A stretch of DNA of 42,010 nt from Candidatus Cloacimonadota bacterium (GTDB taxonomy: Bacteria; Cloacimonadota; Cloacimonadia; Cloacimonadales; WRIO01). Location of the stretch: NCBI GenBank assembly GCA_029553545.1, contig JAKPKU010000181.1, forward strand, positions 1-42,010, read 5' to 3'. Of the stretch, positions 19,687 through 40,281 are shown piece by piece (the first letter of the stretch is position 1; every line of letters begins with the position of its first letter). Under the pieces are notes generated by a model. The model searched no databases. It was not told the origin of the DNA and worked only from the letters and a program-made list of their open reading frames with translations. A program made the translations under genes and the position numbers.

Positions 19687-20636
19687 AATGCCTCCAATTC
19701 ATTTATTACTTTTTCAATATCTGCAATTTTATCGATATTAAAAACTTTTGCTTCCGGATTAATTTTAGCTATCATACCACTCAAAACCTTTTGTGGTCCA
19801 AATTCTATATAAAGATTTAGTCCTTGAGAGGTAAGATAATTGACTGTATTGACCCATTGAACTGAGTTTGTCACTTGATCAATCAGATTATTTTTAATCT
19901 TTACTGGGTCTATTTCTGGCAATGCATTGATATTTGCGACTACAGGAATATCTGTTTTATTAAATGCAATTTCCTTCATCTCTTCTTCAAGCCATTTGCC
20001 TGCTTTTGCTATTAATGGTGAGTGAAAAGGACCACCAACAAGCAAAGGCATTACTCTCTTTGCCTTTTCTTCTTTAGCGAGTGTTGTCGCAATCTCTACG
20101 CCTTCTTTTGTTCCAGAAATAACTGTTTGTACTGGTGTATTGAAATTTGCTGCCACTACCAAAGCTGTTTTTGACGCCTTATCACAAATCTCTTTCACTT
20201 TATCTGGTGCTAATCCCAAAACTGCTGACATAGCAAACTCTTGTCCATCATTTGCTTTAATCATAAATTCGCCACGTTTATGTACAAGAAAAAGGGCATC
20301 ATTTAATGACAAAACGCCGTTTGCTACCAGTGCAGAAAACTCGCCAAGTGAATGTCCTGCGACATAATCAGCTTTGATATTTACTCTTTTTTGTAATTCT
20401 AAAAAAGCCACTATACTATGAAACAAGATAGCAGGCTGTGTGAATTTTGTATCTTTCAAAGTCTCTTCTGGTCCGTTTGTTATGACATCTTCGAGGTCAA
20501 ATCCAGACTTTGTTTTAAACTGATTTAATACATCTTTATAATCATTATTTTCTGCGATAAAATCAGTTGCCATACCAACATATTGTGCACCTTGTCCAGG
20601 AAACACAAAAGCTATTTTTTGATTTTTATATGCCAT
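19683..20636 (-). CDS. fabD: malonyl-CoA:ACP transacylase
   Basis: Loads malonyl groups onto ACP for fatty acid elongation. The 317-aa protein starts with the typical FVFPGQGAQYVGM and has the nucleophile S96 in GHSLGEFSAL. The later His of the active site is in GGPFHSPLI. The start is ATG at 20636 with AAGG some eight bases upstream. The stop overlaps the fabG start. Confidence 0.96.
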   Translation of the reverse strand: MAYKNQKIAFVFPGQGAQYVGMATDFIAENNDYKDVLNQFKTKSGFDLEDVITNGPEETLKDTKFTQPAILFHSIVAFLELQKRVNIKADYVAGHSLGEFSALVANGVLSLNDALFLVHKRGEFMIKANDGQEFAMSAVLGLAPDKVKEICDKASKTALVVAANFNTPVQTVISGTKEGVEIATTLAKEEKAKRVMPLLVGGPFHSPLIAKAGKWLEEEMKEIAFNKTDIPVVANINALPEIDPVKIKNNLIDQVTNSVQWVNTVNYLTSQGLNLYIEFGPQKVLSGMIAKINPEAKVFNIDKIADIEKVINELEAL

Positions 20637-20673
20637 ATCATTTACCTTTCATTCAATTACTTTCACAGATCAA

Positions 20674-20691
20674 TACCAGCATTTGCTGGTA
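20674..20691 (-). other. short hairpin between fabH and fabD
   Basis: TACCAGC (20674-20680) / GCTGGTA (20685-20691), loop ATTT, just behind the fabH stop and without a T-run. It is possibly an mRNA-stability or processing hairpin and is not a clear terminator. Confidence 0.4.
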
Positions 20692-20693
20692 AA

Positions 20694-21689
20694 TCAATAT
20701 CTGAATATGATTGTACCGTAGGTTAGTCCTGCGCCAAAGGCGGTTATCAGTACAATATCACCTCTTCTGATTTTACCATCAATTATAGCATCTGTGACGG
20801 CTATTGGTATAGAGGATGAAGATGTATTAGCATATTTTTCAATGGTGACAATTACTTTTGATTTTGGTGCTTTAAACTTATCTGCCAATGCATCAATAAT
20901 TCTCAAGTTAGCTTGGTGAGACACGATCCAATCCAAGTCTTTGACGTCCATATTATTCTTTTTTAATAGGTCAGAGCTGACTGTATACATTGAGCGAACG
21001 GCATGTTTAAAGATCTTATTACCCTCCATATAAATGGTATGGGCATTTTCTCTCAGAGTTTCTTGTGATGCGGGGTAGCGTGATCCGCCAGCCTTTTGCA
21101 TCAATAATTCCCATTCAGTTGCGTCTGCTGTTATTTTTGAATCTATTATTCTTGAAAGATCATTTTTTTCTGCACGCTTAATAATTGCAGCGCCTGCACC
21201 ATCACCAAAGAGAATACATGTGCCTCTATCGTCCCAATTAATCGTTCTTGTCAGTATTTCCACACCTACAACGAGGATAGTATCATAAGCACCTGTTTCG
21301 ATATAATGTCTGGCGATATCAGCTGCATAAATGAAGCCTGTACAGCCAGCAGAAACGTCGAAAGCAGGAATATCTTTCAAGCCTAATTTCTTTTGCAAGA
21401 TGCATGCTGTGGCAGGAAATGGATGATCTCCTGATATAGTACCTACGATAATCATTTGAATATCTTTAAGTCGTGTAGTTTTTGAACCGTAAATTGCTTT
21501 TTCAGCAGCGTGGAAAGCTAAGTCAGAGGCAGCTTCATGAGAAGCGCTATAATGTCTTTCAAACATCCCTGTTCTGGTTCTGATCCATTCATCTGATGTA
21601 TCTACTTTTTTTTCCAAATCATAGTTATTTACAATTTTTTCTGGAACGTAAGAACCAAAAGAATCGAATTTTGCATTGTATAAGCTCAT
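20694..21689 (-). CDS. fabH: beta-ketoacyl-ACP synthase III
   Basis: First condensation of fatty acid synthesis (acyl-CoA plus malonyl-ACP). The 331-aa protein has the catalytic Cys in VSAGCTGFIYA (near residue 115), the His in VSHQANLRI and the Asn in YANTSSSSIPIA. AAAGGA lies upstream of the ATG, within the end region of plsX, and the gap to plsX is two bases. Confidence 0.96.
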   Translation of the reverse strand: MSLYNAKFDSFGSYVPEKIVNNYDLEKKVDTSDEWIRTRTGMFERHYSASHEAASDLAFHAAEKAIYGSKTTRLKDIQMIIVGTISGDHPFPATACILQKKLGLKDIPAFDVSAGCTGFIYAADIARHYIETGAYDTILVVGVEILTRTINWDDRGTCILFGDGAGAAIIKRAEKNDLSRIIDSKITADATEWELLMQKAGGSRYPASQETLRENAHTIYMEGNKIFKHAVRSMYTVSSDLLKKNNMDVKDLDWIVSHQANLRIIDALADKFKAPKSKVIVTIEKYANTSSSSIPIAVTDAIIDGKIRRGDIVLITAFGAGLTYGTIIFRY

Positions 21690-21691
21690 TT

Positions 21692-22687
21692 TTATTTCCT
21701 TTCGAAATACTCCTTAACTTCCTCGATAAAGGCAGATTCGGAGATTTTTGCAGCAAATTTAACTGCATTTTTAATCGCAATTGCATTAGATCTACCATGT
21801 GCAACCACAGAAATACCATTTAAACCAACAAGCAAAGCACCACCATATTCAGAATGGTCTAATTTCTTTTTCAAGTATTTATATACTGGATAAGATAAAA
21901 GGGCACCAATCTTTGCCACCCAATCATGTTTCATTTGTTCTTTCATCATATCAAATATTGCCATTGCTGCGCCTTCGACGCTTTTTAGCATTACATTACC
22001 GACAAAGCCATCGCAGACAACAACATCGGTAACACCTTTGAGCAAATCTTTTCCTTCTATATTACCAATAAAATTTATTTCTTTATTCTGAGAAAGAGCC
22101 TGGTAAGCTGTTTTAGTCAGCTCATTGCCCTTCTTACTCTCTTCACCAATATTAAGCAAAGATACAGTCGGAGATTCTAAGTTAAAAGAAAACTTGGCAT
22201 ACAAAGAACCCAAAACAGCAAACTGTTCAAGGTGCTGAGATTCACAATCTACATTTGCACCTACATCGAGAACTATTTCCTGTCCATGCATAGTTGGAAA
22301 AGTCAATGCTATCGCTGGACGCGACACATTTTTAATTCGTCCTAAAGCAAAAAGAGAAGCCGCCATCATTGCGCCTGTATTGCCTGCACTTACAGCGGCA
22401 TCAGCTTTCCCTTCTTTGTGTAGCCTCAAAGCTACAACCATTGACGAATCTGTCTTTTTACGGGCAGATACACTTGGATCATCATCCATGCTTATTACAT
22501 CTGGCGCATGAACTATCTCTATGCGACTTTTGTCATAGATAAATTTATCTAAGTGTGATGCCAGCTCGTCTTCTTTGCCAACTAAGTAGATTTTTTCGCA
22601 CACATTTTCTTTAATAGCTAAAACTGCGCCTTCAACTTCTGCCAAAGGGCAATTATCACTACCGTATGCATCTAATGAGATCTTCAT
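21692..22687 (-). CDS. plsX: phosphate acyltransferase PlsX
   Basis: Converts acyl-ACP to acyl-phosphate, the first step of phospholipid synthesis in the PlsX/PlsY route. The 331-aa protein opens with the family start (ISLDAYGSDNCPLAEVEGA) and contains SAGNTGAMMA and VVCDGFVGNV. The start overlaps the rpmF stop as TAATG and has only a weak site, so it is probably coupled to rpmF translation. The gene order is the classic rpmF-plsX-fabH-fabD-fabG-acpP-fabF-rnc. Confidence 0.96.
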   Translation of the reverse strand: MKISLDAYGSDNCPLAEVEGAVLAIKENVCEKIYLVGKEDELASHLDKFIYDKSRIEIVHAPDVISMDDDPSVSARKKTDSSMVVALRLHKEGKADAAVSAGNTGAMMAASLFALGRIKNVSRPAIALTFPTMHGQEIVLDVGANVDCESQHLEQFAVLGSLYAKFSFNLESPTVSLLNIGEESKKGNELTKTAYQALSQNKEINFIGNIEGKDLLKGVTDVVVCDGFVGNVMLKSVEGAAMAIFDMMKEQMKHDWVAKIGALLSYPVYKYLKKKLDHSEYGGALLVGLNGISVVAHGRSNAIAIKNAVKFAAKISESAFIEEVKEYFERK

Positions 22688-22866
22688 TATTGCTTCGCTT
22701 CTACTATCTGTTTTCCTTTATAAAAACCGCACTTAGCACATACATAGTGTGGTCTGGTTGGTTCACTGCAATTAGGGCAGTTACTCCAGCTTGGGATAGT
22801 CAAAGCGTCATGAGTTCTTCTTTTGTCTCTTCTTGCTTTTGATGTTTTTCTTTTTGGTACTCCCAT
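22687..22866 (-). CDS. rpmF: 50S ribosomal protein L32
   Basis: Short 59-aa gene between plsX and the phosphorylase gene. The product starts MGVPKRKTSKARRDKRR, is very basic, and has four zinc-binding cysteines in CPNC and CAKC. This is typical for L32. GGAG stands just before the ATG. It heads the lipid operon, as in many bacteria, and its stop overlaps the plsX start. Confidence 0.96.
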   Translation of the reverse strand: MGVPKRKTSKARRDKRRTHDALTIPSWSNCPNCSEPTRPHYVCAKCGFYKGKQIVEAKQ

Positions 22867-22897
22867 GTTTTTCTCCTTTCAAATAAATAAAATACAC

Positions 22898-22936
22898 AAT
22901 ATAAATCACGAAATTATTTTTGACAATTATTGTCAA
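22898..22936 (-). promoter_or_regulatory. promoter of the rpmF-plsX-fab operon with an overlapping palindrome
   Basis: On the - strand TTGTCA (22926-22921), a 17-base spacer and TATATT (22903-22898) form a promoter about 30 bases ahead of rpmF. The -35 lies in a perfect 17-base palindrome (22920-22936), TTGACAAT-A-ATTGTCAA, which could be an operator. It does not match the FapR box as I know it. A further TTGACA at 22969-22964 lacks a fitting -10. Confidence 0.55.
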
Positions 22937-22977
22937 GTATTTTGATTTTTAACACTATATTTTTGTCAAAATATTGC

Positions 22978-24282
22978 TTAAATCACCTCTATTATAATAT
23001 CTTCTGAATGTTCTTCAGTCTCTGCAATATTCATGCTATTTAAGATCCGAAAGACTACATTTCTGCCAACTTCGTCATTTTCACAGTAAACATAACCGAT
23101 TATTTCACCTTTATCGATACGATCGCCTTGCTTTTTGTAAAACTCACAGCCTGTATTATAGTCCAAAGCCGACTCTAATACACGTCTACCAGCGTTAATC
23201 TCAACTAAGGCATAGCCGATTTCTTGCGAATTGATACTTTGTACATAACCCCCTTCTTGAGAGATTATTGGAAGTCTATACTTGCTTTTTCCAAAAAGAG
23301 AGTAATCATCAACGATCTTTGGATCTCCTCCTTGGTTATTGACCATCTCGATAAATTTATCCAGAGCTTTACCATTACTGACAACTTCATTAATCTTGCT
23401 CAATGCCTCATTTTTATCTTTTGCAATATTACTTAAAATCAACATCTGGCAGGCAAGTTCATTTGTAATGATCTCTAAATCAGGCACCTTTTCACCTTTT
23501 AAATAATCAATACATTCAATTATTTCAAGTGCATTGCCTATTTTGTAGCCGATTGGTGAATTCATAGCTGTAAAAACCACTTTAACTCTCTGTCCAAAGG
23601 CAGTACCAGTATTAATTAAGCTATGTGCCAAAGCCTCAGCTTCTGCTAAGTTTTTCATAAAAGCACCAGCGCCCACTTTCAAGTCTATTACTAAGTTTTT
23701 TGCACCTTCTGCAATTTTTTTACACATCACGCTGGCTGTAATCAAGGCACGGCTTTCGACTGTACCGCTCACATCTCTTAATGCATAAATCTTTTTATCA
23801 GCTGGCACAAGTTTTTCAGATTGAGCAATAATTGCCAGTCCGCATTTCTCTACCATTTGTACAAACTCAGATTCTGAGTAGTGAGTTTTAAAACCTGGTA
23901 TAGCTTCGAGCTTATCAAGGGTCCCCCCTGTATGTCCCAAACCTCTCCCCGATATCATCGGCACATATGCACCACACGCTGCAACTATTGGCGCTAATAC
24001 TATAGTAACCTTATCGCCAACGCCGCCTGTTGAGTGTTTATCGACAGTATGCAAAGAATCTGCAAACTTTATTTGAGAGCCAGACTCAATATAAGCGGCA
24101 GTCAAATCAATTATTTCAGACATCTCCATACCTTTGAAAAAGGTGCTCATCAAAAAGGCTGACATTTGATAATCAGGTACTCTACCATTAACATAATTAT
24201 TTACCAGAAAGGCAATTTCGTTTTTATTTAAGGTATGCCCATTTCTTTTCTTTATGATCAATTCTACAGGATTGAAGCTCAT
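22978..24282 (-). CDS. deoA: pyrimidine-nucleoside (thymidine) phosphorylase
   Basis: Phosphorolysis of thymidine/uridine/deoxyuridine to base plus (deoxy)ribose-1-phosphate, in nucleoside salvage. The 434-aa length and the motifs KHSTGGVGDKVTIVLAP, SGRGLGHTGGTLDKLE and KVGAGAFMK fit the pyrimidine-nucleoside phosphorylase family, closest in length to the Firmicutes Pdp form. It follows the aminotransferase gene by 25 bases, so the two probably form one transcript. The functional link between them is unclear. Confidence 0.93.
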   Translation of the reverse strand: MSFNPVELIIKKRNGHTLNKNEIAFLVNNYVNGRVPDYQMSAFLMSTFFKGMEMSEIIDLTAAYIESGSQIKFADSLHTVDKHSTGGVGDKVTIVLAPIVAACGAYVPMISGRGLGHTGGTLDKLEAIPGFKTHYSESEFVQMVEKCGLAIIAQSEKLVPADKKIYALRDVSGTVESRALITASVMCKKIAEGAKNLVIDLKVGAGAFMKNLAEAEALAHSLINTGTAFGQRVKVVFTAMNSPIGYKIGNALEIIECIDYLKGEKVPDLEIITNELACQMLILSNIAKDKNEALSKINEVVSNGKALDKFIEMVNNQGGDPKIVDDYSLFGKSKYRLPIISQEGGYVQSINSQEIGYALVEINAGRRVLESALDYNTGCEFYKKQGDRIDKGEIIGYVYCENDEVGRNVVFRILNSMNIAETEEHSEDIIIEVI

Positions 24283-24307
24283 TTAATATTCTTTCAAAAG
24301 TGATTGT

Positions 24308-25522
24308 TTAGATCATTGACTTTAGTAAATCGCCCAATGCCTTCACACCAGCATCGATTTGTTCGATTGATGGATATGAGAAATTTAAGCGTAAAGAGTT
24401 GAATCTTTCATGATTAGTGGGATAGAATTTACTTCCAGGTATGAAAGATATCTTCATTTCTTTTGCTTTTTCAAACAATTCATCTGTATTAATATGTTCA
24501 GGGCATGTCAACCAGATAAAGATACCGCCCTCAATTTCAGGCCATTTCACTTCTTTTGGCATATATTTTTCGAGAGCATTAAGCATTGCCTCCATATAAG
24601 GTGCATAGAATTTCTGTATCTTTTCGATATGTGGATTTAATTTATCATCTCTCATATACTTAGCAACAGCTCTTTCAGCCACACAGTTAGGGCTGACAAT
24701 AACTTTTTGTAGCCAAGAAATCATCGGTTGAATAAGCTCTTTATCTGCTAAGACATAGGCAACACGCAAGCCAGGTCCAAGTATTTTTGAAAAAGATTTT
24801 ACAGCGGTTACTACTTGTGAGTTTTGATAATCTTCTCTTGCGATAGCATAAAGGCTTTTAATGTTTTCACCCTTATATCTCAATTGGCTATAAGGATCAT
24901 CTTCAAGCAATAAGATAGAGTGCTTGATAGCTGTTTTTATCAAGTCATGTCGTCTTTGCAAGCTCATAGTTACGCCTGTTGGATTTTGAAAATCAGGTAT
25001 TGTATAAATAAATTTTATTGTCTTATTTTCTGCTTTGAGTTTAGCGATCACTTCATCAAGCTCAGCCATATTAATGCCTTCATCGTCCATTGACACAGGG
25101 ACAACTTCAGCTCCTGCAGCCTCAAAAGCGACTAAGGTATCTAAGAAGCTTGGTCCTTCACAAAGAATCACATCGCCAGGATTAATAAGAGTTTGGGTGA
25201 AATAATAGATGCCATTAGTAGCACCGTCAACAATTAAGATTTCATCATCAGCTAAATAGTCTTTTTTCTCCCACTTTTTGATCTCAGTTTTCAAAAAGTT
25301 ATCGCCTTCACTTGCCCCATATTGCAAGATATCACAGCCATCACTATCGATTACTTCATTGAATATTTCAGCGAGATCCTGTACAGGAAAAGTCTGCGGC
25401 GAGGGGAAGCCCCCTGCAAATGATATAAGACCTTTGATACCCTTTGTCGAAGCTACCAATTCACGAATCAAAGAAGATTTCATTGTAGCTGTTGATTTGG
25501 AATACATTGATTTTAAATTCAT
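24308..25522 (-). CDS. PLP-dependent aminotransferase (class I/II, LysN / MocR-like fold)
   Basis: Predicted fold-type I aminotransferase for amino acids, 404 aa and cytoplasmic. Visible elements are FAGGFPSPQTFP, the QYGASEG segment, YTIPDFQNPTGVTMS (Asn that binds PLP), EDDPYSQLRY, and the PLP lysine in AVKSFSKILGPGLRVAYV (near residue 245). This pattern matches the 2-aminoadipate/aromatic/branched-chain group, and the substrate cannot be fixed. No GntR DNA-binding domain is fused to it. GGAG five bases before the ATG supports the start. Confidence 0.9.
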   Translation of the reverse strand: MNLKSMYSKSTATMKSSLIRELVASTKGIKGLISFAGGFPSPQTFPVQDLAEIFNEVIDSDGCDILQYGASEGDNFLKTEIKKWEKKDYLADDEILIVDGATNGIYYFTQTLINPGDVILCEGPSFLDTLVAFEAAGAEVVPVSMDDEGINMAELDEVIAKLKAENKTIKFIYTIPDFQNPTGVTMSLQRRHDLIKTAIKHSILLLEDDPYSQLRYKGENIKSLYAIAREDYQNSQVVTAVKSFSKILGPGLRVAYVLADKELIQPMISWLQKVIVSPNCVAERAVAKYMRDDKLNPHIEKIQKFYAPYMEAMLNALEKYMPKEVKWPEIEGGIFIWLTCPEHINTDELFEKAKEMKISFIPGSKFYPTNHERFNSLRLNFSYPSIEQIDAGVKALGDLLKSMI

Positions 25523-25664
25523 CTTAACTCCTATAGTGTTTTTTTATTTGAGCTAAGTATATTTATTATGCCAAATCAGTCAAACAATATTTTCATAAAT
25601 ATGCTTTTATGAATATCTGCTGATCTTATTTCTCTCTTATAAAAACAATTAGAAAGTACAAAAA

Positions 25665-25817
25665 GTCCTCGCTTCGCTGCGGGTGAGGTACTTTACTTTG
25701 TAAAGGTTAGGTACTCTGACTGCGTCAGAGGTTAGGAACTTCGACTTCGTCAAAGGTTAGGTAAAAAATCAATTGATTTTTGTTTTGCTGTAGGTAATTT
25801 CACGAAGTGAAAATACT
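25665..25817 (+). repeat. hairpin array A
   Basis: Five to six short hairpins stand head to tail, separated by GTTAGGTA-like linkers. They are CTCGC/GCGGG (in the 19-mer at 25665-25683), CTTTAC-TTT-GTAAAG, CTCTGAC-TGC-GTCAGAG, CTTCGAC-TTC-GTCAAAG, the palindrome AAAAATCAATTGATTTTT, and ATTTCAC-GAA-GTGAAA. Linkers and loop pattern stay fixed while stems change. This array fills most of the 343-base gap between the aminotransferase and the HsdR-N-like gene. A TTGACA at 25820-25825 just after it may serve the next gene, although the -10 is poor. Confidence 0.75.
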
Positions 25818-25865
25818 TCTTGACAATTACTATCTTTCTTTACAAGATAAGATTTGGAGGCGCAT

Positions 25866-27371
25866 ATGTTATCAATTATTGAAGATATTAAGGGCAAACT
25901 CAATAATGTATCTTTTACAAACAAGGGGCAGATACGTTTTGCACTGATTAGTAGGATATTGCAAAGTCTACAGTGGGACATCTGGAACCCAGCGGAGGTT
26001 TATTACGATTACCCTATCAAGAATTTCCCAAGATGTAGTATCAGCAATGATGAGAATGGCACAGTTGATTTTGCTCTCTTTATATTAGGGGCAAAGGAGC
26101 CTAATATCTATATCAAAGTAGCAGATATTGGTCAGTTGCTTGATAATATTGGCGTATATGAAGAGCAATTATCTACATACAATGACTATGATGCATCGGA
26201 AATCAGCATTATCACCGATGGCATTATCTGGCAATTCTATTTTTTGAATGCTGGTGGCTCTTTTTCGAGTAATCTCGTCGAATCTCTCAATCTTTTGAAT
26301 GACGATATAGAACAAATCATAAATACATTCACTGAGGTCTTTGACAAAAAATTCAATAGAGAAAAATATCGGCAAAGACAATTAGAAGAAAAAGCCCTGA
26401 TCGATGATATTGTGTCTGTAATGCACGAGGCAGAGAAGGATGCTCCACGATATAGTATGACAAAGTATGATGCTGCTTCAAGGTTGATTTATACGCAATG
26501 CAATAAAGAACGCTCTATCGACCAGATCGAAAAGTTTTGGGATAGAGCACTGAAAAAGAAAAACCTTCATAGCACAGAGAGCAAAGACACAATTGCTGAA
26601 ACCCCTGATTATACACCTACTCAAAAGCTAATAGACCTCAATACATTCAATCCAACATTCACCAAAATATTACGTGCTGAAATCTTTGGTGAATTTCATT
26701 ATATCAAAAACTGGAAAGATCTATACCTGAAAGTGTGTACAAAAGTATTGGAAATATACCCAAATTCTGATCTAACAGGCTTTTTAAGCACAGAGAAACC
26801 AAACAAAAACATTGACTATGTCATAATTAAAGGCAAGTATTTAGTTACAAACTTAAGTGCACGTGATATACTAAAGAATTGTATAAGAGTCCTACAAGCC
26901 CATGGTCTCACTGATAATCTGAAGATTTACGAAGGTGATATTGTTAAACAAAAAGATCATACCACTGTTGAAATCTTAGATAACACGCCCACTCAAATAG
27001 TTTCAGAGCCAATTATGCCTATCTTAGCAAGACCTATTAATCTCAGGACATTCAACCCAACCTATACCAAAATAATAAGAGCTGAAATCTTTGGTGAATT
27101 TCATTATATAAAAAACTGGAAAGATCTATATCTGAAAGTGTGTACAAAAGTATTGGAAATATACCCAAATTCTGATCTGGCGGGCTATTTAACCACAGAA
27201 AAACCAAATGGCGATAGCATAATTATTAATGGCATATATTTATCTACAAGGAGCAATCCACAAGAATGCTTAAAACGTTGCCTTATAATATTACAAACCA
27301 ATGACCTGAATGATAGCCTGAAGATCTACAAAAACGATATTATCAAAAGAGAGAAAAAAGTCAGAAAATAA
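25866..27371 (+). CDS. HsdR-N-like protein with inactivated nuclease site and duplicated C-terminal domain
   Basis: The 501-aa protein has an N-terminal domain (about 1-165) like the N-terminus of type I restriction R subunits: RFALISRILQSLQWDIWNP, VDFALF, and EEQL followed by ITDGIIWQFYF. In active relatives the next block reads FIEVK; here it is YIKVA (residues 82-86), so the Glu and Lys of the PD-(D/E)xK site are replaced while D68 is kept. It is therefore probably catalytically dead. After a linker come two copies of a domain of about 105 aa (about 245-360 and 380-500), with WKDLYLKVCTKVLEIYP at the core and LKIY near the end. I start at ATG 25866, because GGAGG lies five bases before it; the TTG at 25854 overlaps that site. 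It lies alone between two inverted hairpin arrays. It could be a regulator, immunity protein or binding subunit. Confidence 0.75.
   Translation: MLSIIEDIKGKLNNVSFTNKGQIRFALISRILQSLQWDIWNPAEVYYDYPIKNFPRCSISNDENGTVDFALFILGAKEPNIYIKVADIGQLLDNIGVYEEQLSTYNDYDASEISIITDGIIWQFYFLNAGGSFSSNLVESLNLLNDDIEQIINTFTEVFDKKFNREKYRQRQLEEKALIDDIVSVMHEAEKDAPRYSMTKYDAASRLIYTQCNKERSIDQIEKFWDRALKKKNLHSTESKDTIAETPDYTPTQKLIDLNTFNPTFTKILRAEIFGEFHYIKNWKDLYLKVCTKVLEIYPNSDLTGFLSTEKPNKNIDYVIIKGKYLVTNLSARDILKNCIRVLQAHGLTDNLKIYEGDIVKQKDHTTVEILDNTPTQIVSEPIMPILARPINLRTFNPTYTKIIRAEIFGEFHYIKNWKDLYLKVCTKVLEIYPNSDLAGYLTTEKPNGDSIIINGIYLSTRSNPQECLKRCLIILQTNDLNDSLKIYKNDIIKREKKVRK
26676..27178 (+). repeat. 98-base near-identical duplication inside the HsdR-N-like gene
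   Basis: 26676-26773 and 27081-27178 match at 96 of 98 positions. Both differences are silent (ATC/ATA for Ile, TAC/TAT for Tyr). The rest of the two domains has diverged much more, so this core looks recently duplicated or converted. Confidence 0.9.
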
Positions 27372-27376
27372 AGTAG

Positions 27377-27455
27377 GTGCGCCCATCTCGGACGCACCCT
27401 GGTAAATCAATTAATTTTACGAAGCAAAGCACCTATCCCGCAGCGAAGCGAGGAC
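27377..27455 (-). repeat. hairpin array B, inverted relative to array A
   Basis: Read on the - strand it starts with GTCCTCGCTTCGCTGCGGG (27455-27437), the exact reverse complement of 25665-25683. It continues with a TAGGTGC linker, an imperfect GTAAA..TTTAC palindrome and a GGTGCG/CGCACC hairpin (27377-27398). The last also stands six bases behind the HsdR-N-like gene and could act as its terminator. Together with array A it frames that gene. Confidence 0.7.
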
Positions 27456-27459
27456 CAAA

Positions 27460-27981
27460 TCAGCTTTCAGTAAGATGTACTTTTGGGCTCATCTTCCTTC
27501 TATTTTTCAGCTCTTCTGCCAATGCTTCATCTTTTTTTTTGATTTTTTTTATACTTCTACCAATAGCTTTGCGAACTGCATCGTATAGCTTTGATTGGGA
27601 GGTGGGGAAACTTCTTAGTTTGAATCTTTTGCCCAAACACTCAGCAAGATACTTTTCCATTATAATAATATCTTCTTCTGTTTTAACTACCAAGTCATTT
27701 CTCCCCAAGCTCTCAAATACAGCTTTTCTTTCGATCATATTATTTAACTCTTTTCTAACTTCAGATAATGCTTTTCGATCAGTCATGGGGATTTTTGTAT
27801 CTAAAACTACCTGATGTATAGCATCTTTCTTAAGATTTTCGTCGAATTTTAGTTTGGCCTCTAATAGTTCTTCAGGTGTAAACCCTTCACCCATATTTTC
27901 CAGTAGCGTGATTAAATAAAAATCATTTTCTCGATTCAAATACCCTAAAATCTCTTTGTGGCGTTCCTTAATTTGGTCCAT
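27460..27981 (-). CDS. 173-aa protein of unknown function, related to the 137-aa protein at 30.7-31.2 kb
   Basis: Highly charged, helix-rich protein without signal peptide or membrane segment. It ends in a basic tail (GRSIKKIKKKDEALAEELKNRRK). The middle contains NMIERKAVFESLGRNDLVVKT, which matches LIERKAILMNYGKTELVKET in the - strand gene at 30747-31160; the two are thus distant paralogues in the same island. GGAG six bases before the ATG sets the start. A basic tail suggests nucleic-acid binding, but I know no family for it. It is last in a same-strand run of small genes. The 261 bases before it contain no supported feature. Confidence 0.7.
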   Translation of the reverse strand: MDQIKERHKEILGYLNRENDFYLITLLENMGEGFTPEELLEAKLKFDENLKKDAIHQVVLDTKIPMTDRKALSEVRKELNNMIERKAVFESLGRNDLVVKTEEDIIIMEKYLAECLGKRFKLRSFPTSQSKLYDAVRKAIGRSIKKIKKKDEALAEELKNRRKMSPKVHLTES

Positions 27982-28242
27982 GGTGGTCTCCTTTGTTTTA
28001 ATAAATATTGTACATTCCTATTTTAATTTAGAATTAAGCACAAAACTCAGAATAGCTCATTCAGAGTTCCATCTTACACAAAAATAAACACGATTATTAC
28101 CTATTATTACATATTTGAATGTACCTCTTATATTATATATAAAAAGAGCAAAATAACAAATAATTTTTATCTCTTTTTTTAATAATATTTGCTGATGTTG
28201 CTGTACAAACAAAACATGCGTGTTTATTATAATTAACATATT

Positions 28243-28416
28243 TTAATTATCCAATGACTCTAAAATTGTACTAATTCGCACAATGTCTTTTTCAATTCTG
28301 ATGGTACGCTCTTCAATGGAATTGACTCGATTGGTCACGTCTTTCCAAACATATCCTAAAACGGCTAAAACCACTGGTATAAGAGCAGCATTAATAAAAG
28401 CTGTATACATTGTCAT
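28243..28416 (-). CDS. 57-aa single-TM, coiled-coil small protein (holin- or XhlA-like)
   Basis: The peptide begins MTMYTAFINAALIPVVLAVL, a hydrophobic helix. A charged heptad stretch follows (VTNRVNSIEERTIRIEKDI) and it ends in SLDN. AGGAG six bases before the ATG gives a good ribosome binding site. One TM helix plus one coiled coil is the layout of small phage proteins (holin/XhlA-like) and of some membrane toxins. No lysin is nearby, so neither role is shown. It is spaced 52 bases behind the 54-aa gene. Confidence 0.65.
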   Translation of the reverse strand: MTMYTAFINAALIPVVLAVLGYVWKDVTNRVNSIEERTIRIEKDIVRISTILESLDN

Positions 28417-28468
28417 ATTATCTCCTTTCTCTGCTTATTGTTATTATTTGTATGCGTATCTTGTATTA

Positions 28469-28633
28469 TCACGTGTTATTCTCAACTAATTCTTCTAAGA
28501 TTTTGACGATTCGGTCGTCGACTTTATTTTCTGTCTTTTTTGCTATATCTTTAAATAGTGCTATTAATAGTCTTATTAGCCTATCATAGGGCAGCATGCT
28601 CAGTAAGAGTATTATATATTTGTCCATTTTCAT
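28469..28633 (-). CDS. 54-aa small protein with amphipathic N-terminal helix
   Basis: The frame starts at ATG 28633, five bases behind GGAG, and ends in TGA. The N-terminal half is hydrophobic (MKMDKYIILLLSMLPYDRLI and on to RLLIALF) and the second half is charged (KKTENKVDDRIVKILEELV). The layout resembles its 57-aa neighbour, but there is no clear sequence match. It could be a membrane-associated peptide of a small phage-like or toxin-like set. The function is unknown. Confidence 0.6.
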   Translation of the reverse strand: MKMDKYIILLLSMLPYDRLIRLLIALFKDIAKKTENKVDDRIVKILEELVENNT

Positions 28634-28656
28634 TTTGTCTCCTTTATTTTTTAATT

Positions 28657-28696
28657 GGCAGGCGGAGGATAAGCTTTTGCTCGCCTCCCGCCCGCC
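28657..28696 (-). other. GC-rich hairpin ahead of the 54-aa gene
   Basis: GGC-A-GGCGG-AGG (28657-28668) pairs with CCT-C-CCGCC-C-GCC (28684-28696) around a 15-base loop. It is strikingly G+C-rich for this window and sits about 20 bases before the ribosome binding site of the 54-aa gene. It has no T-run on the - strand. It is possibly a translational or RNA-stability control, or a separate repeat. Confidence 0.45.
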
Positions 28697-28754
28697 TTAC
28701 TTTCTGGGGTTAAGTGTCGTAGCCACTCAAAAGCAGCTAATTATTTTTACGATA

Positions 28755-29201
28755 TTAAGTGATTGGACTAATTAAATGATCACATCCTTTCAAATAAGGT
28801 AAGATCTGATTTTCCATTAAACCGCTGATAGTAGTTCCACCTATACCATCAAAATCATTTAAAGATAAACTTTCCAATGGATTACTTGACATCTTTGCTG
28901 CAGCATAACATATCTTCACAAATAATGCATATGATGTTGCCTTAAGCTTATCAGGGAAATTAATATTAAGTATCTGAGCATAAATTGTCAGATCGTTTTT
29001 AAATGCTGAATTTGCAGCCACCCATAATGTTCTGATATTCTCAGCATTCTTTTTAAATTGCTCATGTTGGTCAGTATACTTTGGTTTTGTGTAGTTCTTT
29101 GCAATACAAACGTTCCCTAAATTGTGTGAGGAGTAAACGACATCCTCTTCCTTGTCTTTACCTGAATATGCTGTGATATTCTTCTTCATGTACACTCTCA
29201 T
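28755..29201 (-). CDS. 148-aa protein of unknown function
   Basis: Soluble, mostly helical protein, no signal peptide. Segments include KPKYTDQHEQFKKNAENIR, NDLTIYAQILNINFPDKL and a glycine-containing FDGIGGTTISGLMENQI. I recognise no domain. GGAGG six bases before the ATG is strong. It is first of a same-strand run with the 54-, 57- and 173-aa genes, which share the same style of ribosome binding site. A small mobile or phage-derived module would fit, but no integrase, capsid or lysin is visible. Confidence 0.65.
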   Translation of the reverse strand: MRVYMKKNITAYSGKDKEEDVVYSSHNLGNVCIAKNYTKPKYTDQHEQFKKNAENIRTLWVAANSAFKNDLTIYAQILNINFPDKLKATSYALFVKICYAAAKMSSNPLESLSLNDFDGIGGTTISGLMENQILPYLKGCDHLISPIT

Positions 29202-29294
29202 TGTGTACCTCCTTTGATTTTATTTATTCTTCTTGCGCATGAAGTTTTTTTATATTTATTTTATTTGCTTCGGTGAATTTGGAATTATGAATTG

Positions 29295-29419
29295 TGTGAA
29301 AAAAAAACAACACCCTCTATATATATTGGCAGGACAAAACGGAGTTTTTTGAAAACTATTTTCAACTAAACCGGCAGATGCCTACTACAAGCGGGTTTAG
29401 GGGTGATTTTTTTTTCACA
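29295..29419. repeat. structured repeat element, copy 2 (long hairpin)
   Basis: The outer stem TGTG + nine A (29295-29307) pairs with nine T + CACA (29407-29419). Inside is CACCC (29311-29315) with GGGTG (29401-29405), and inside that AAACC (29368-29372) with GGTTT (29394-29398), enclosing GGC-AGAT-GCC and the block GCCTACTACAAGC. It shares its 5', middle and 3' blocks with the element at 198-345. No open frame explains it. Confidence 0.55.
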
Positions 29420-29452
29420 ACACACATTTTTTTTTAACAACACACTGTTTTG

Positions 29453-29601
29453 GTCCTCGCTTCGTTGCGGGTGAGGTACTTTTCTCCGAAAAGGTTAGGT
29501 ACTCTGACTGCGTCAGAGGTTAGGTGCTTCGACTGCGTCGAAGGTTAGGTAAAAAATCAATTGATTTTTGTTTTGCTGTAGGTAATTTCACTACGTGAAA
29601 T
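29453..29601 (+). repeat. hairpin array C
   Basis: Same order as array A: CTCGC/GCGGG, CTTTTC-TCC-GAAAAG, CTCTGAC-TGC-GTCAGAG, CTTCGAC-TGC-GTCGAAG, AAAAATCAATTGATTTTT and ATTTCAC-TAC-GTGAAAT, with GTTAGGT(A/G) linkers. Against array A the second stem exchanges an A-T pair for a T-A pair and the fourth restores a pair that is mismatched in A. The stretch from 29202 to 30746 contains no supported gene and consists largely of such repeats. Confidence 0.75.
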
Positions 29602-29611
29602 TGGAGGGAGC

Positions 29612-29700
29612 TTTTGCTTCGCTGCGGGTACCGTTTAAAAAAATCGGCAGATTTTTTTAAACGTACCCACAACTATCCTTAGTTGTGCAGCGAAGCAAAA
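29612..29700. repeat. perfect three-way-junction inverted repeat, copy 1
   Basis: Base stem TTTTGCTTCGCTGC (29612-29625) / GCAGCGAAGCAAAA (29687-29700), 14 bp. Arm 1 is GGGTA/TACCC plus CGTTTAAAAAAATC / GATTTTTTTAAACG with one bulged C and a GGCA loop (29626-29668). Arm 2 is ACAACTA-TCCT-TAGTTGT (29669-29686). The arms abut with no unpaired base at the junction. A CGAC-TTC-GTCG hairpin follows. Confidence 0.8.
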
Positions 29701-29722
29701 CGTGCGACTTCGTCGCTGACGG

Positions 29723-29848
29723 TTTTAGTCTCAACAAGTTGGTACGCGAAGGTGTTCAGATTATAGGTTTTTAGTCTCAACAAGTTGGTACGCGAAGGTG
29801 TTCAGATTATAGGTTTTTAGTCTCAACAAGTTGGTACGCGAAGGTGTA
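29723..29848 (+). repeat. 46-bp tandem repeat, about 2.7 copies
   Basis: TTTTAGTCTCAACAAGTTGG and the following CGCGAAGGTGTTCAG recur at 29727, 29773 and 29819 (first A of AGTCTC), giving a period of 46. The first two units are identical where compared, and the third breaks off after AAGGTGT. A GTACAATTA/TAATTGTAC hairpin follows directly (29847-29868). Confidence 0.85.
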
Positions 29849-29952
29849 CAATTAAGGCTAATTGTACCTACAATTAGCTGCACGTGAATTTTACTTAAGG
29901 TATTTCTTTCTGGTGAAAGAAATATATAAGGAAGCAGGTTCCTTTTAAATAA

Positions 29953-30296
29953 TCTCTCATTCCCAATAATCTGGCTTTGTAAATAAAAATAGCCTTATTT
30001 GTATATGTGCGATGGACAACTACGAACAAGCCAAAAAGAAATCTATCATTCACGATAATATGGCTTTGTAAATACAAATAGCCTTAATTGTATACGTGCG
30101 ATGGACAACTACGAACAAGCCAAAAAGAAATCTCTCATTCACGATAATCTGGCTTTGTAAATACAAATAGCCTTATTTGTATACGTGCGATGGACAACTA
30201 CGAACAAGCCAAAAAGAAATCTATCATTCACGATAATATGGCTTTGTAAATACAATTAGCCTTATTTGTATACGTGCGATGGACAACTATGAACAA
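29953..30296 (+). repeat. 89-bp tandem repeat, four copies, alternating A-B-A-B
   Basis: GATGGACAAC recurs at 30011, 30100, 30189 and 30278, an exact period of 89. Units differ at only a few positions. Most units contain the inverted repeat ATACAAATA/TATTTGTAT (reduced in the first, second and last) and an outer TGGCTT..AAGCC pairing. The junctions after copies 1 and 3 read CTATCATT..ATATGG and those before copy 1 and after copy 2 read CTCTCATT..ATCTGG, so the units alternate. Each complete unit from ATG to TAA encodes a 19-codon frame (30012-30071, 30101-30160, 30190-30249), without a clear ribosome binding site. Confidence 0.85.
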
Positions 30297-30343
30297 GTAA
30301 ATAGAGTCAATCTTCAATTTCTCGAAGTGAAATTGGAGGGAGC

Positions 30344-30433
30344 TTTTGCTTCGCTGCGGGTATCGTTTGAAAAAATCGACAGATTTTTTTTAAACGTACC
30401 CACAACTATCCTTAGTTGTGCAGCGAAGCAAAA
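30344..30433. repeat. three-way-junction inverted repeat, copy 2
   Basis: Same structure as 29612-29700: base stem 30344-30357 / 30420-30433, arm 1 30358-30401, arm 2 30402-30419. It differs from copy 1 in the bulged base (C to T), in one pair that becomes a G-T wobble, in the apical loop (G to A) and by one extra T. No difference breaks a Watson-Crick pair. Confidence 0.8.
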
Positions 30434-30456: not shown

Positions 30457-30569
30457 GACGAGCAAAGCTCGCCCCTACGTTATTTCTTTCTGACGAGCGA
30501 AGCTCGCCCCTACATTATTTTGGTCCTCGCTTCGCTGCGGGGTAAAAATAAACCTCGCCGAAGCGAGGT
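30457..30569 (+). repeat. cluster of GACGAGC hairpins and a further array unit (D)
   Basis: Two copies of GACGAGC-(AAA/GAA)-GCTCGCCCCTAC (30457-30478 and 30492-30513, period 35) are followed by the 19-mer GTCCTCGCTTCGCTGCGGG at 30523-30541 and by ACCTCGC-CGAA-GCGAGGT (30552-30569). Repeats of the GACGAGC type occur in many unrelated bacterial genomes. The remaining 180 bases up to the next gene are A/T-rich without a feature I can name. Confidence 0.7.
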
Positions 30570-31443: not shown

Positions 31444-32172
31444 ATGGTATTAGAAATAGAATTACAGGTAAAAGAAGGTGGGGAGATAGAAGTTATTACG
31501 ATAGACTTGAGCCGTATCATTAAAGAAAGTATAAGCGGTGAGGTTGTTTTGAGTAAAGATGAAGCAGAAAAAAAGATAGAAAAATCAAAAATGTTTCATT
31601 ATGATAAAGCTGTGAAAGATGATACATTATGCTTAATAAAGAAAGAAAACGGATATACTGAAATAACTGAAGATGTGAACCCTTACTATAAAACAATCGT
31701 AGTGCTCTTAGAATCGCCTCATAAGGCTGAATATACTGAAGATTTTGCACCAATAAGACCATTAAATAGCAATGATCCAAGAGTGAAATTAAAGAAAGCA
31801 TTAAAAGATATTATTAACAGTGATAATGATTTAAGTGATGGACTTTACCGAATATTATTAGTAAACCCTATACAATTTCAAACTTCAATGTACGAAATCT
31901 TTGGGTTGCCTGTTCAAGGTCGGACTGGTAAAAAAATTCGTGATAAGGTTTGGGATACATTATGGAAGCTGGATAGTATAAAAGATTGCTTGTCTGATAG
32001 ATTGAAAAAATTGGAACTTGATTTGAAAATGATTATTATATCTACCACTAAGCAATTTAGACCCGAAATTAGGACATTTTTAAATGATCGTTTTAAACAT
32101 ATAAAGACAAAAGAGATACATCATCCTTCATGTCGAGAATTATCATTAATTAAAAATGCAAAGAAAAAATAA
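31444..32172 (+). CDS. protein with uracil-DNA-glycosylase-like motifs, function unproven
   Basis: The 242-aa protein has an N-terminal strand-rich part (1-80). A block VVLLESPHKAEYT (about 86-98) stands where UDG-superfamily proteins carry their water-activating/ligand motif, and a late IHHPSCRELSLI (about 223-234) recalls the HPS-type DNA-intercalation motif. The middle has RILLVNPIQFQTSMYEI. UDG-fold proteins remove uracil from DNA or have turned into defence and modification proteins. Here the first motif lacks the classic GQDPYH, so activity is open. GGAG precedes the ATG by seven bases. It is divergent from the 137-aa gene and convergent with the transposase fragment. It could instead be an unrelated Rossmann-like enzyme. 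Confidence 0.45.
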   Translation: MVLEIELQVKEGGEIEVITIDLSRIIKESISGEVVLSKDEAEKKIEKSKMFHYDKAVKDDTLCLIKKENGYTEITEDVNPYYKTIVVLLESPHKAEYTEDFAPIRPLNSNDPRVKLKKALKDIINSDNDLSDGLYRILLVNPIQFQTSMYEIFGLPVQGRTGKKIRDKVWDTLWKLDSIKDCLSDRLKKLELDLKMIIISTTKQFRPEIRTFLNDRFKHIKTKEIHHPSCRELSLIKNAKKK

Positions 32173-32815: not shown

Positions 32816-35800
32816 TCAATTATCTTCCCTCTCAATAATCGCAATTTCATCCTTTGTCAAATCATAAAGCTGATAGACTAATCTATCTATCTGACCTTCA
32901 AGCTCTGAGGTATCTGCCTTTGTATTAGCCTTTTTTATAGCGGTAATTTGCTCAACTAATTCTATCATTTGGTCTGCTATATGCTGATTTGCTGCAGTAA
33001 TAATAGGGACATGGATTTGTTCTATATACTGCTTCGTCCATCTAAAGGCTTTATCAAGAGAATTACTAATAGTCCTAAATTCAAAGAATGTAATTTTTGA
33101 GTTAAGACATGCGATCAAGTATTTTAAGTTAACTGTATCTGATGTGAGAATATATGCTGTTGCTTCCAAGTACATGAGTTCTTCAAATAGTGCAAATGGG
33201 TTTATAGTAGAAATATCTGCCCATATAATCTTTTCTTTTTCAAATTCTTTATAATATGTGGCAGCACATCTTTGAAGAGCATACCACTCATATCTGATAC
33301 CTGTTTCAGCTTTATTTCTACTGCTTAAAGCAGGTTTATAATGAAGTAGATGTTGATAAATTGCAGGATACTGAATTTGGAATTCTTTTTCTGCTTTATC
33401 ACTCGATCCTTGAATACTCGAATCTTCGTGTAAAGGGAAATGCCAAGGCACAAAAATTATCCACAATCCTGCCCATTCATAGCTATATCGTTTAATATCT
33501 CTACCACGAAGAATAGGCTTTATAATTTCTGCTGATTTTGGATCTTCAGCACAGAGTCTCTCTTTAGTTGCTGTATCGATGATAAATGCATCATTGAGTC
33601 CTGTTAATACTCCTCGGTAAATATTCACATCCCAGTCTTTCAGTGGTTTACCAATGCGTTCAATTTTTTCTTTTAGGGAGATTTCAGCAGAATTCCCTAT
33701 AAACCATGCATCCTGAGACACTTTATTCAGAATAATTGACTCATTACTCATCGCTTCATTAATACTTTTTAAATCAGAATAATAGGTTAGTGCTTTTAAG
33801 TTATTTTGGTTTACATTCTTTTCTATTAGCATTATATTGGTATCAACAGTAGCTGATTTAAATACTCCTGGTCCTAAATCTATCAATACTTTGGGATTTA
33901 GTTCAGAGAAGTATCTTCTTAATTTTTCACCATAACCTGCTCTCATCCATTTATTTGAAGTAATCAAACATAAGTGACCATTGTCTTTAAGTAAATTAAT
34001 ACCTTTTTCATAGAATAAACCATAAATATCACCCATAGAATCATAAGTAACAAAGTTTTGTTCTTTGTATAATTTCTGAAGAGGATTTCCTTTGAATTTT
34101 TGTAACTGTACATAAGGTGGATTTCCTATCAGAATATCAAAGCCATCTTCAATACCATACATCCACTGTGCATCAAACCAATCAGCACCACATATTTGAT
34201 TATATGGATCCCATGAAGCAATATTATCGATACTCCCTTCTGGATAATCAGCTTTTTTTAGTTCACTCTTTATTTCTTCTCTTTTCTTACGGTCTTCTGC
34301 TCTTAGCTCCTTTTTTTTCCTTAAGTACTTGGCGGAAAACATTCTATGTCTTATTTGCTTCAGCTCGTTTTCAAGATCTTTAATTTGATACAAATCATAT
34401 ATGGTAATTTGCTCTTTTGGCTTTTCCAACTTGATCAAGCTATTAGCAGCTACAAATTTTGTTTCCAGGTTGGGCAGGGCTTTTAGTCCAAAATTATCTT
34501 CTTTATTTTCATTAGCCTTTTGGTCAACAATCAGAGAGATGAAAAAGCGTAGTTTACTGATCTGAATAGCTATTGGTTGGATATCGACGCCATAGATACA
34601 GTTTTCAATCAAATAGAGTTTACGTCCATAGTCCATTCCTTTATTTTGAAAAGAGGTTTCGATAGCCTTGATAGCCTCTTCTCTGTACTCTGCAACTTCT
34701 ATACTCTCAGTTTTCTTAATCTGTCTCTCTTTCCAGCGTTTATTATCGGGGTCAAGCTTTTGCAAGAGGTGTACTTGTTTATGCAGTATACCCATGGGAA
34801 AGGCGCCTGAACCACAAGCAGGGTCGAGGATCTTACAATTATCAATTGCCTTAATTAAGACCTCAACCTGGTTTTGGTCGAAGAGATGCTCTTTCTCATT
34901 ATAGCTAATCAAGAAATCAATTCCTACTTCTGCATCCTCTTCTTTCATCTTTGCCTCTTTGACCAAGCTCTGGATGAGATAAGCCTTTAAAGACTCATCT
35001 ACCATAAAATTCACAACTTCTCTCGGTGTATAAAAGCTGCCTGTCTTCTTACGTGCTGTTTCTTTTGTATCGGGATTATAGGTTGCCAAGAGGTTTTCAA
35101 AGACACGTCCCAAGAGTTCTGGATCGAGGGCAATATCTTCTTCTATAGGCGTATTCTCTTCAATGGTAAACTTAAAATTATTAAAGATATTAATTAAACC
35201 GTGTACCTTAACTTTATTCTTTTTTGTGTCATAAAGGTCATCAGCAAGGTTTGCCGTCTCTTCAGCTGAGAAGAAGAGATAATCAGGCACTGAAATTACA
35301 TTATCATTACGGTCGGAAAAGCCATCTATCTTAACTTTAACAATGCCCCCCTGAGGACCTCTCTGTGTATCATCCAGATAGTCCAAGCACTCAAAGAGTC
35401 CACCGTTTAAGAAAGGCACATTATCATCAAGCCATTGAGCAAAAGCATCTGGTTCTTTGAAAGTGTCTTTATAGCGCATCAAATTATCAGCGCCCATATT
35501 TTGATCTTTTTTTCTAAATGCACGTTTGCCTACTTCTTGATTGAGTGTAGCAAAGAAGAGGTTTTGCAGAATAGACTTATAATAGATACTCTGCTGTTCG
35601 TGAGGCTCTCGCTCACTATCTTTCTTTGTTTCTATCTCTTGCTTGAGTATCATATTTAAGTGATCTAATTCGAATAACTCGCGGGGCACTAAATCTCTCT
35701 CTTTGATAAACCAGACAAATAAGAGACGGGTGAGCATTCTAATCAGATTCATTTCATTTTGCTCTTTAGCTTTATCATCACCTTTTTGAGTGCCATTAGG

Positions 35801-36502
35801 GAATCTAACTTCATTGATCGCCCAGAAATACCAGTTGGATAGCTCGGTGTAGAATTTCTTATTTAGTTCTTGAATATCGAGTACTTTCTCCCAAGCTTTC
35901 TGCAAATCGTCAAAGTTTTCTATCTTTTTTTTCTCTTCTGTACTTAGCTCAGCGAGCGATAAGCTTAACAATATATCGAGATGTGCTCTGTGTGGAGAGG
36001 CGATAGAGATGTCTTTAATCATCGTGATTTTCAATATAACATCTTTATTATCATCGTTTTTATTCTTTCTTTTATCCATCACAGATAGTGTCAGTAAATC
36101 ATTATATTTGAAGAGAATCAAGACTGGCATTTTATAAACTTTATTGATCTCACGGCTAATCTGTGCTATTTTGGTACGTGAATACTCATGTCCTTTAAGT
36201 TCTACGCACATGAAGAGAAAACTATGTTTCACTTTATGCTCAAATACGTATGGTTTAATACCATTTAGCTCAGCACTTGTAATCTGAAATAAGAGGTTTA
36301 TTGACAGCCACTCATCCACCAATGCTTTGTCTTCTTTAAAACTTGAGGTATCATTAGATCGTTTAAAGCCCTCAAAGTTTGCATAATTATCTATAAGCAC
36401 TCTTTCTGATTCATAGCCTAAAATCTTGAATAGTTCTCTTGCTGCTGCGAGCATTGGTTTGCTTGTAAATGCTTGGATAGCCGTTTTGATCTTATTTCTC
36501 AT
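32816..36502 (-). CDS. type IIG-like adenine-specific DNA methyltransferase (Eco57I/TaqI-type), candidate restriction-modification subunit
   Basis: The 1,228-aa protein has an N-terminal region with a VELKG segment (about 115), which could be a divergent PD-(D/E)xK nuclease core, but the full motif is not certain. A helical part follows, then the N6-adenine methyltransferase domain. That domain carries TGSFYTPREVVNF (motif X, about 490), DPACGSGAFPMG (motif I, about 560) and GNPPYVQL (motif IV, about 793). A C-terminal target-recognition region of TaqI type begins near NIYRGVLTGLNDAFI (about 960). It starts ten bases after the helicase gene stop, with GAGG overlapping that gap, so both are co-expressed. 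The protein probably marks host DNA and supplies sequence recognition. The upstream part may be nuclease or scaffold. Similar helicase/methylase pairs occur in other bacteria, and I do not know a tested mechanism. Confidence 0.85.
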   Translation of the reverse strand: MRNKIKTAIQAFTSKPMLAAARELFKILGYESERVLIDNYANFEGFKRSNDTSSFKEDKALVDEWLSINLLFQITSAELNGIKPYVFEHKVKHSFLFMCVELKGHEYSRTKIAQISREINKVYKMPVLILFKYNDLLTLSVMDKRKNKNDDNKDVILKITMIKDISIASPHRAHLDILLSLSLAELSTEEKKKIENFDDLQKAWEKVLDIQELNKKFYTELSNWYFWAINEVRFPNGTQKGDDKAKEQNEMNLIRMLTRLLFVWFIKERDLVPRELFELDHLNMILKQEIETKKDSEREPHEQQSIYYKSILQNLFFATLNQEVGKRAFRKKDQNMGADNLMRYKDTFKEPDAFAQWLDDNVPFLNGGLFECLDYLDDTQRGPQGGIVKVKIDGFSDRNDNVISVPDYLFFSAEETANLADDLYDTKKNKVKVHGLINIFNNFKFTIEENTPIEEDIALDPELLGRVFENLLATYNPDTKETARKKTGSFYTPREVVNFMVDESLKAYLIQSLVKEAKMKEEDAEVGIDFLISYNEKEHLFDQNQVEVLIKAIDNCKILDPACGSGAFPMGILHKQVHLLQKLDPDNKRWKERQIKKTESIEVAEYREEAIKAIETSFQNKGMDYGRKLYLIENCIYGVDIQPIAIQISKLRFFISLIVDQKANENKEDNFGLKALPNLETKFVAANSLIKLEKPKEQITIYDLYQIKDLENELKQIRHRMFSAKYLRKKKELRAEDRKKREEIKSELKKADYPEGSIDNIASWDPYNQICGADWFDAQWMYGIEDGFDILIGNPPYVQLQKFKGNPLQKLYKEQNFVTYDSMGDIYGLFYEKGINLLKDNGHLCLITSNKWMRAGYGEKLRRYFSELNPKVLIDLGPGVFKSATVDTNIMLIEKNVNQNNLKALTYYSDLKSINEAMSNESIILNKVSQDAWFIGNSAEISLKEKIERIGKPLKDWDVNIYRGVLTGLNDAFIIDTATKERLCAEDPKSAEIIKPILRGRDIKRYSYEWAGLWIIFVPWHFPLHEDSSIQGSSDKAEKEFQIQYPAIYQHLLHYKPALSSRNKAETGIRYEWYALQRCAATYYKEFEKEKIIWADISTINPFALFEELMYLEATAYILTSDTVNLKYLIACLNSKITFFEFRTISNSLDKAFRWTKQYIEQIHVPIITAANQHIADQMIELVEQITAIKKANTKADTSELEGQIDRLVYQLYDLTKDEIAIIEREDN

Positions 36503-39806: not shown

Positions 39807-39837
39807 AAACACCCCACACACACATGATTTTTATGCC

Positions 39838-39866: not shown

Positions 39867-39916
39867 TCTTTATTTTTTCATTAGCAACGCACTTTTAACA
39901 ACACACGGCGACAAAA

Positions 39917-40082
39917 GACAAACTGTTCCATGGTACACAAACACTAATTTTACATTTCTTTTTTTAACAACACACTACAACACACTACAACACACTACAA
40001 CACACTTAGGTTTAAAGTCTTTGACAAACTGTTCCATGGTACACAAACACTAATTTTACATTTCTTTTTTTAACAACACACT
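39917..40082 (+). repeat. 60-bp direct repeat enclosing a decamer microsatellite
   Basis: 39917-39976 and 40023-40082 are identical over 60 bases (they begin GACAAACTGTTCCATGGTAC). Between and overlapping them stand four exact copies of ACAACACACT (39967-40006). The end of the repeat, TTTTTAACAACACACTG followed by TTTTGGTCC, also occurs at about 29431-29457, in front of array C. Confidence 0.85.
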
Positions 40083-40186: not shown

Positions 40187-40281
40187 TTTAAAGGTAGTTG
40201 TAACTTATTCTATACGACAACACACTTGGGTTTATAGCCTTAGACTTACAGTTTCATATTCTACAAGACAGTGAACCAGAA

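Follow-up and report, generated by a model that had tools for sequence, protein, structure and literature searches.

The closest described systems are the REP and BIME repeats with their RAYT transposases, the REPtrons (Nunvar et al. 2010, PMC2817692; Di Nocera et al. 2013, PMC3733652). Compensating mutations in stems have already been described for the REPs in BIMEs, and in most genomes with REPs, head-tail REP dimers are seen seldom or not at all (PMC2817692, PMC3733652). Here, we describe ordered strings of different hairpins in a 2.88-Mb metagenome-assembled genome of Cloacimonadota (G000); a text search of the literature revealed no report of REP/BIME-like repeats in this phylum. The window analysed is contig C38 of this genome, 42,010 nucleotides in length, and the closest of the relatives compared (G001), of the same genus, served as sister species. 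The initial annotation had taken a 19-mer that surrounds an HsdR-N-like gene in inverted orientation as a boundary of gene cassettes or a site of homologous exchange. In our opinion it is highly likely that the 19-mer is the head of a dispersed family of intergenic hairpin arrays, probably spread by a RAYT in a REP/BIME-like landscape, and that the frame of the gene consists of two independent copies.

All placements of the 19-mer GTCCTCGCTTCGCTGCGGG in that annotation were correct: an exact inverted pair, three further direct copies and one copy with a single mismatch (Table 1). Dinucleotide shuffles give a mean expectation of 0.01 matches and thus, its recurrence is not due to chance. Genome-wide there are 42 exact copies, 22 in forward and 20 in reverse orientation, at about 33 places on about 25 contigs, and in a scan of 40 genomes, G000 included, the 19-mer was present only in G000. 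This scatter through ordinary intergenic DNA is what the initial annotation itself had named as speaking against boundaries of cassettes. A looser search revealed 65 head copies in 345-389 kb of fetched G000 DNA that was picked for containing copies and that underlies all counts of the repeat family beyond the 19-mer and the module model mentioned below. The coding share of this DNA is about 83%, yet all but a handful of the head copies are intergenic; they are found in every gene orientation and next to ordinary neighbours. As expected for repeats that break assemblies, several 19-mers, such as those on C100, C245 and C268, are no more than about 150 bp away from the end of a contig. The window has four sites after merging, compared to 0.5 expected, and this mild clustering counts against a reading as dispersed copies; on random placement, some 15-kb stretch with at least four sites arises in about 2% of cases.

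Alignment of the copies side by side revealed that the repeat can extend to ~150 nt; the 19-mer makes up just its first ~19 nt and is the head hairpin (H) of what we call a family A array. The order of parts is nearly fixed: the head is followed by slots a, b and c, an optional second head and a tail. The internal hairpins are about 18-20 nt long and each is followed by a GTTAGG (or GTGAGG) linker; they have a T-N-C loop in common but differ in their stems, which are CTTTAC/GTAAAG, CTTTTC/GAAAAG or CATTGC/GCAATG in slot a, TTTTCAC/GTGAAAA, CTCTGAC/GTCAGAG or CTTTCAC/GTGAAAG in slot b and CTTCGAC/GTCGAAG in slot c. Tail T1 is CTTTCACATTCGTGAAAG followed by a T run, tail T2 is AAAAATCAATTGATTTTT, often followed by a hairpin preceded by GTAG. 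The two arrays A1 and A2 of the window are 93% identical and have different stems in slot a, each of which is self-consistent. In the stems, 96.4% of cells are paired compared to 86.3% after shuffling, four of seven pairs are altered on both sides, and the covariation score of the stems exceeds that of all 500 shuffles and of every slid version. Selection on the hairpin is not the only possible source of such compensating changes, which template switching within quasi-palindromes could produce as well. The slot order is kept in 38 of the 43 arrays with at least two internal hairpins, whereas 5000 shuffles gave 12 on average and never more than 23; this test describes a regularity and not a prior prediction, since the slots were named after inspection of the arrays. 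Of 74 arrays, all but two are located outside ORFs of at least 110 amino acids. A covariance model of one family A module had 73 matches in G000 and none in 14 relatives, the sister species among them. Family A is best pictured as short arrays whose hairpins are joined by GTTAGG and whose stems are interchangeable within a slot.

Table 1 Repeats and the enclosed gene in the window (C38). H, head; a-c, slots; T1 and T2, tails.
Feature	Position	Strand	Remarks
Array A1, H-a1-b2-c-T2	25665-25812	+	Head is an exact GTCCTCGCTTCGCTGCGGG; ssDNA fold z = -3.3
Parts of A1	H 25665-25683, a1 25691-25705, b2 25714-25730, c 25739-25755, T2 25764-25781	+	
GTAG-preceded hairpin trailing A1	25798-25812	+	
HsdR-N-like protein, 505 aa	25854-27371	+	Sole long ORF between the inverted 19-mers
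Head hairpin with decayed array remnant to ~27416	27437-27455	-	Exact match
Array A2, H-a2-b2-c-T2	29453-29600	+	Head with one change
Cloverleaf repeat C, three-way junction	29616-29696	+	Same family as inverted repeats around RAYT1 on C113
Tandem 89-nt repeat, dispersed family	29951-30297	+	
Second cloverleaf repeat C	30348-30429	+	
GTAG-tagged REP, family D	30457-30478	-	GTAGGGGCGAGCTTTGCTCGTC
Second family D REP	30492-30513	-	Variant loop
Head hairpin without array	30523-30541	+	Exact match
AACAACACAC-type repeats (E)	39890-40082	+	
Array H-c-H with terminator-like T1	40089-40189	+	Heads 40089-40107 and 40138-40156, both exact; T1 hairpin 40164-40181, T run

Family A is one of several palindromic families that together make up REP/BIME-like mosaics in this genome. 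The cloverleaf repeat C folds into a three-way junction (z = -11.1 for 29584-29720), and its 5' arm shares GCTTCGCTGCGGGT with the head of family A; A/C hybrids form at that word. Three of 12 C elements begin with the CCTC of the A head and a fourth, C54:513, reads GTGCTC at this place. Family D has the consensus GTAGGGGCGAGCT[T/G]TGCTCGTC; 63 exact copies are present in G000 and none in 20 relatives, and GTAG precedes 55 of 62 palindromes of this family. Other repeats are also seen in the window. The 89-nt repeat recurs at further intergenic sites of G000, and a tandem 46-nt repeat in three copies (29723-29860) is located between the arrays. A dispersed repeat of about 117 nt (CACCCTCTATATATATAGGGCTTA...AGCGGGTTTAG) is present at 198-323 and 29299-29415; G000 has many copies of it, and the sister species has diverged relatives. 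For the 29299 copy there was no Rfam match and there is no covarying fold, and this repeat is thus conserved in sequence rather than in structure.

The genome encodes two RAYT-like proteins (RAYT, REP-associated tyrosine transposase). RAYT1 (C113:15449-16096, minus strand; equivalent to L017:4447-5097, minus strand) narrowly passes the NCBIfam profile REP_Tyr_transpos (NF047646) with 80.5 bits at a cut-off of 80, matches TnpArep (PDB 4er8) in phmmer and contains an HVH motif and a DYxxxxxYIxxNPVKxG region, the latter aligned to 4er8. It is flanked by inverted C repeats of about 75-80 nt. RAYT2 (C20:945-1547, minus strand; 200 amino acids) reaches 60 bits with the same profile, below the cut-off of 80, and is framed by inverted family D arrays (C20:674-799, plus strand, and 1692-1752, minus strand) with the GTAG end pointing outward. 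Neither gene is framed by family A arrays, the closest of which is about 670 bp upstream of RAYT1, and this counts against spread of family A by a RAYT, as does the GTTAGG/GTGAGG linker in place of GTAG. When the relatives were examined by simple matching of exact words, for which the ORF finder missed many RAYT homologues, most of these homologues were without an inverted frame. Family A would have spread as single-stranded hairpin DNA by the action of a RAYT, and RAYT1, whose repeat C has GCTTCGCTGCGGGT in common with the A head, would be the likeliest candidate. Judged from these sequence relationships, the assignment to RAYT1 has about an even chance of being right.

A REPIN is an inverted pair of REPs with a spacer, a small non-autonomous hairpin element thought to depend on a RAYT. 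Family A arrays are small hairpin elements as well, but consist of several different hairpins in a single orientation. They also resemble the attC sites of integrons, which likewise fold, contain GTTRRRY words and are located near accessory genes; however, the linker is repeated directly and has no RYYYAAC partner. RYYYAAC was found in none of the 45 multi-hairpin family A arrays, and a reading as integron cassettes with attC sites was rejected on this ground. A plasmid or phage origin of the arrays was rejected because the 148-nt array had no match in plasmid or phage collections. In viral contigs there was neither a family A module nor a family D match; only one isolated 20-mer was found, in a sequence with 49% G+C and without array modules, and nothing else there matched the fetched G000 DNA. 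The genome as a whole resembles those with REPtrons: it has short palindromes in many copies, intergenic and in mosaics, and RAYT genes inside inverted palindromes. Family D together with the frame of RAYT2 fits GTAG-type REPs (PMC3733652, PMC2817692). Family A has the short palindromes and the many intergenic copies of this type, but lacks the unpaired GTAG end (its linker is GTTAGG or GTGAGG, and GTAG stands only before some of the hairpins that follow T2) and the inverted frame around a RAYT, which is formed by C for RAYT1 and by D for RAYT2. In contrast to REPs, its hairpins are joined head-to-tail in one direction and in nearly fixed slots. The alternating orientation of BIMEs is also missing in family A, whereas the wider intergenic mosaics of G000 mix families and orientations. 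The long, inverted and self-complementary C repeats of RAYT1, which are also present elsewhere in the genome, are reminiscent of TIRtrons and TIR families (PMC3733652), but C is a three-way junction whose first arm is common to the family A head, with which it forms hybrids.

The gene between the inverted 19-mers is indeed single, as had been annotated. Its product could be aligned with homologues from 11 other genomes at 28-40% identity, and ten of the 12 aligned proteins match Pfam HSDR_N (PF04313), so that the label HsdR-N-like is justified for the family; the protein of the window itself has no HSDR_N score and no convincing match to any family. The PD-(D/E)xK motif, IExK, is conserved in all aligned copies except that of the window, which reads IKVA. 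In addition, the C-terminal domain was recently duplicated (26637-26803 and 27042-27208, 167 bp with 90% DNA identity). Since the motif is altered and the C-terminal domain is duplicated, this protein is probably no nuclease any more, either decayed or repurposed. Another 31 genomes of the phylum have homologues; the relatives among them that were included in the 19-mer scans do not have the 19-mer, and a search for exact words revealed neither inverted nor direct repeats beside the gene at 14 homologue loci. The adjacent block (27476-29257) has a paralogue at C252:62243-63606 without a 19-mer on the one readable side, the other side being a contig end. The genes of this block (27460-29201, and L082:6234-7551 for the paralogue) encode a weakly YqeY-like protein of 173 amino acids, a small ORF and a protein of 148 amino acids, whose gene has a relative on contig C125 of the sister species. 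From the loci without repeats and the paralogous block without the 19-mer on its readable side it follows that the HsdR-N-like gene is an accessory gene whose presence does not depend on the repeats. Farther downstream, the restriction group of the initial annotation was found as a type IIG restriction-methylation enzyme (32816-36502) adjoined by a PLD/HKD-SNF2 helicase (36513-39821) that matches the PADLOC candidate C3a139, but the term UDG-like for the protein at 31444-32172 found no support, as no family was hit at E <= 0.001.

How, then, did the gene come to be framed? The 19-mers could be ends of mobile or exchangeable cassettes, with the HsdR-N-like gene in one of them; in favour of this, a lone accessory gene is surrounded by exact inverted copies, different groups of genes are located between the copies, and the region 25.6-40.3 kb is not colinear with the sister species. 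This reading is nevertheless very improbable. Five other close inverted pairs were found (C1:31591/31944, C20:11462/11993, C54:205/554, C75:20904-21915 and C228:7206/7539), and they contain repeats only and no gene of at least 80 amino acids; of the pairs found, only that of the window encloses a gene. The unframed homologues at 14 loci, the paralogous block and the missing attC sites also argue against cassettes. The absence of 19-mers from the homologue loci and from the paralogous block suggests that the pair around the gene is coincidental: it would represent two independent copies that lie in adjacent gaps within an accessory region and not the ends of a cassette. The arrays could also be transcribed hairpin RNAs or terminators with a role for the host, and T1, a hairpin with a T run, would fit a terminator; in ten of 16 T1 arrays the upstream gene points toward the array. 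For T2 arrays the number is five of 18, without a clear bias, and arrays are found in all gene orientations. They are absent from the sister species, and in the window from 24 to 42 kb there is no Rfam family, the best match, istR, being below threshold (E 0.45). Such a function is improbable, if less so than cassettes. Dispersed hairpin arrays in a REP/BIME-like landscape are the reading that we prefer.

Compatible with these dispersed arrays is the view that recombination takes place between direct or inverted copies of family A and of the repeats that accompany it, and that rearrangements and accessory islands have built up between them as a result; this secondary role in homologous rearrangement is a real possibility, to which we would give somewhat less than an even chance. 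Synteny with the sister species stops at 25593, 72 bp short of the first array, and restarts at ~40295-40316, past the last array; the region between (25.6-40.3 kb) is not colinear. In the sister species, a gene for an FeS protein and a gene X form a tight operon (C8:13395-17561). This operon is split in G000: the FeS gene (window 40282-42010) runs into the end of C38, which truncates it, and X is at C113:17436-18254, adjoining RAYT1. A tail-head-c-head-AACAACACAC repeat is present at both broken ends, in the window as the E repeats with the array at 40089 and on C113 upstream of the other half of the operon; relative to the operon the two point the same way, and they are 80% identical over 250 nt. 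On the 77.6-kb contig C113 the matched C, E, H and 89-nt repeats and 19-mers are only found within ~15.3-17.4 kb, at the break of the operon. Among sampled orthologues, neighbours are kept at one of 13 repeat-bearing gaps compared to 26 of 44 gaps without repeats. However, long gaps without repeats are likewise rarely conserved (two of nine) and thus, gap length or accessory DNA may account for the loss of adjacency. No matched repeat is seen at C113:50936, where the left breakpoint has its partner end. The comparison covers 811 kb, or about 38%, of the sister genome, and the repeats could have arrived after the breaks. Apparently, the repeats are associated with synteny breakpoints. For the exchange at repeats proposed in the initial annotation, the breaks beside arrays and the split operon speak in its favour, and a causal role would be plausible. 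Another rearrangement beside repeats is seen on C100, where the blocks 20193-22980 and 23578-29498 have changed their relative order compared to C8 of the sister species; array sequence is located near their outer ends (C100:20021-20172 and 29904). A more far-reaching proposal is that family A is a distinct RAYT-dependent element, with ordered hairpins in fixed slots, stems swapped as units and a head shared with the frame repeat of the transposase, whose copies reshuffle gene order and gather accessory genes. Taken in its entirety this is unlikely, although less so than a function as RNA.

Altogether, a genome of Cloacimonadota has been found to encode transposases of the REPtron type and to be densely populated by REP/BIME-like repeats. 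Ordered strings of hairpins with alternative, compensating stems are unusual and may inform our understanding of hairpin recognition by RAYTs and of the evolution of palindromes. The locus also calls for caution, because dispersed palindromes can, as a by-product, leave a gene with inverted repeats on both sides. It is beside such repeats that the gene order of this organism shifts relative to its sister species.
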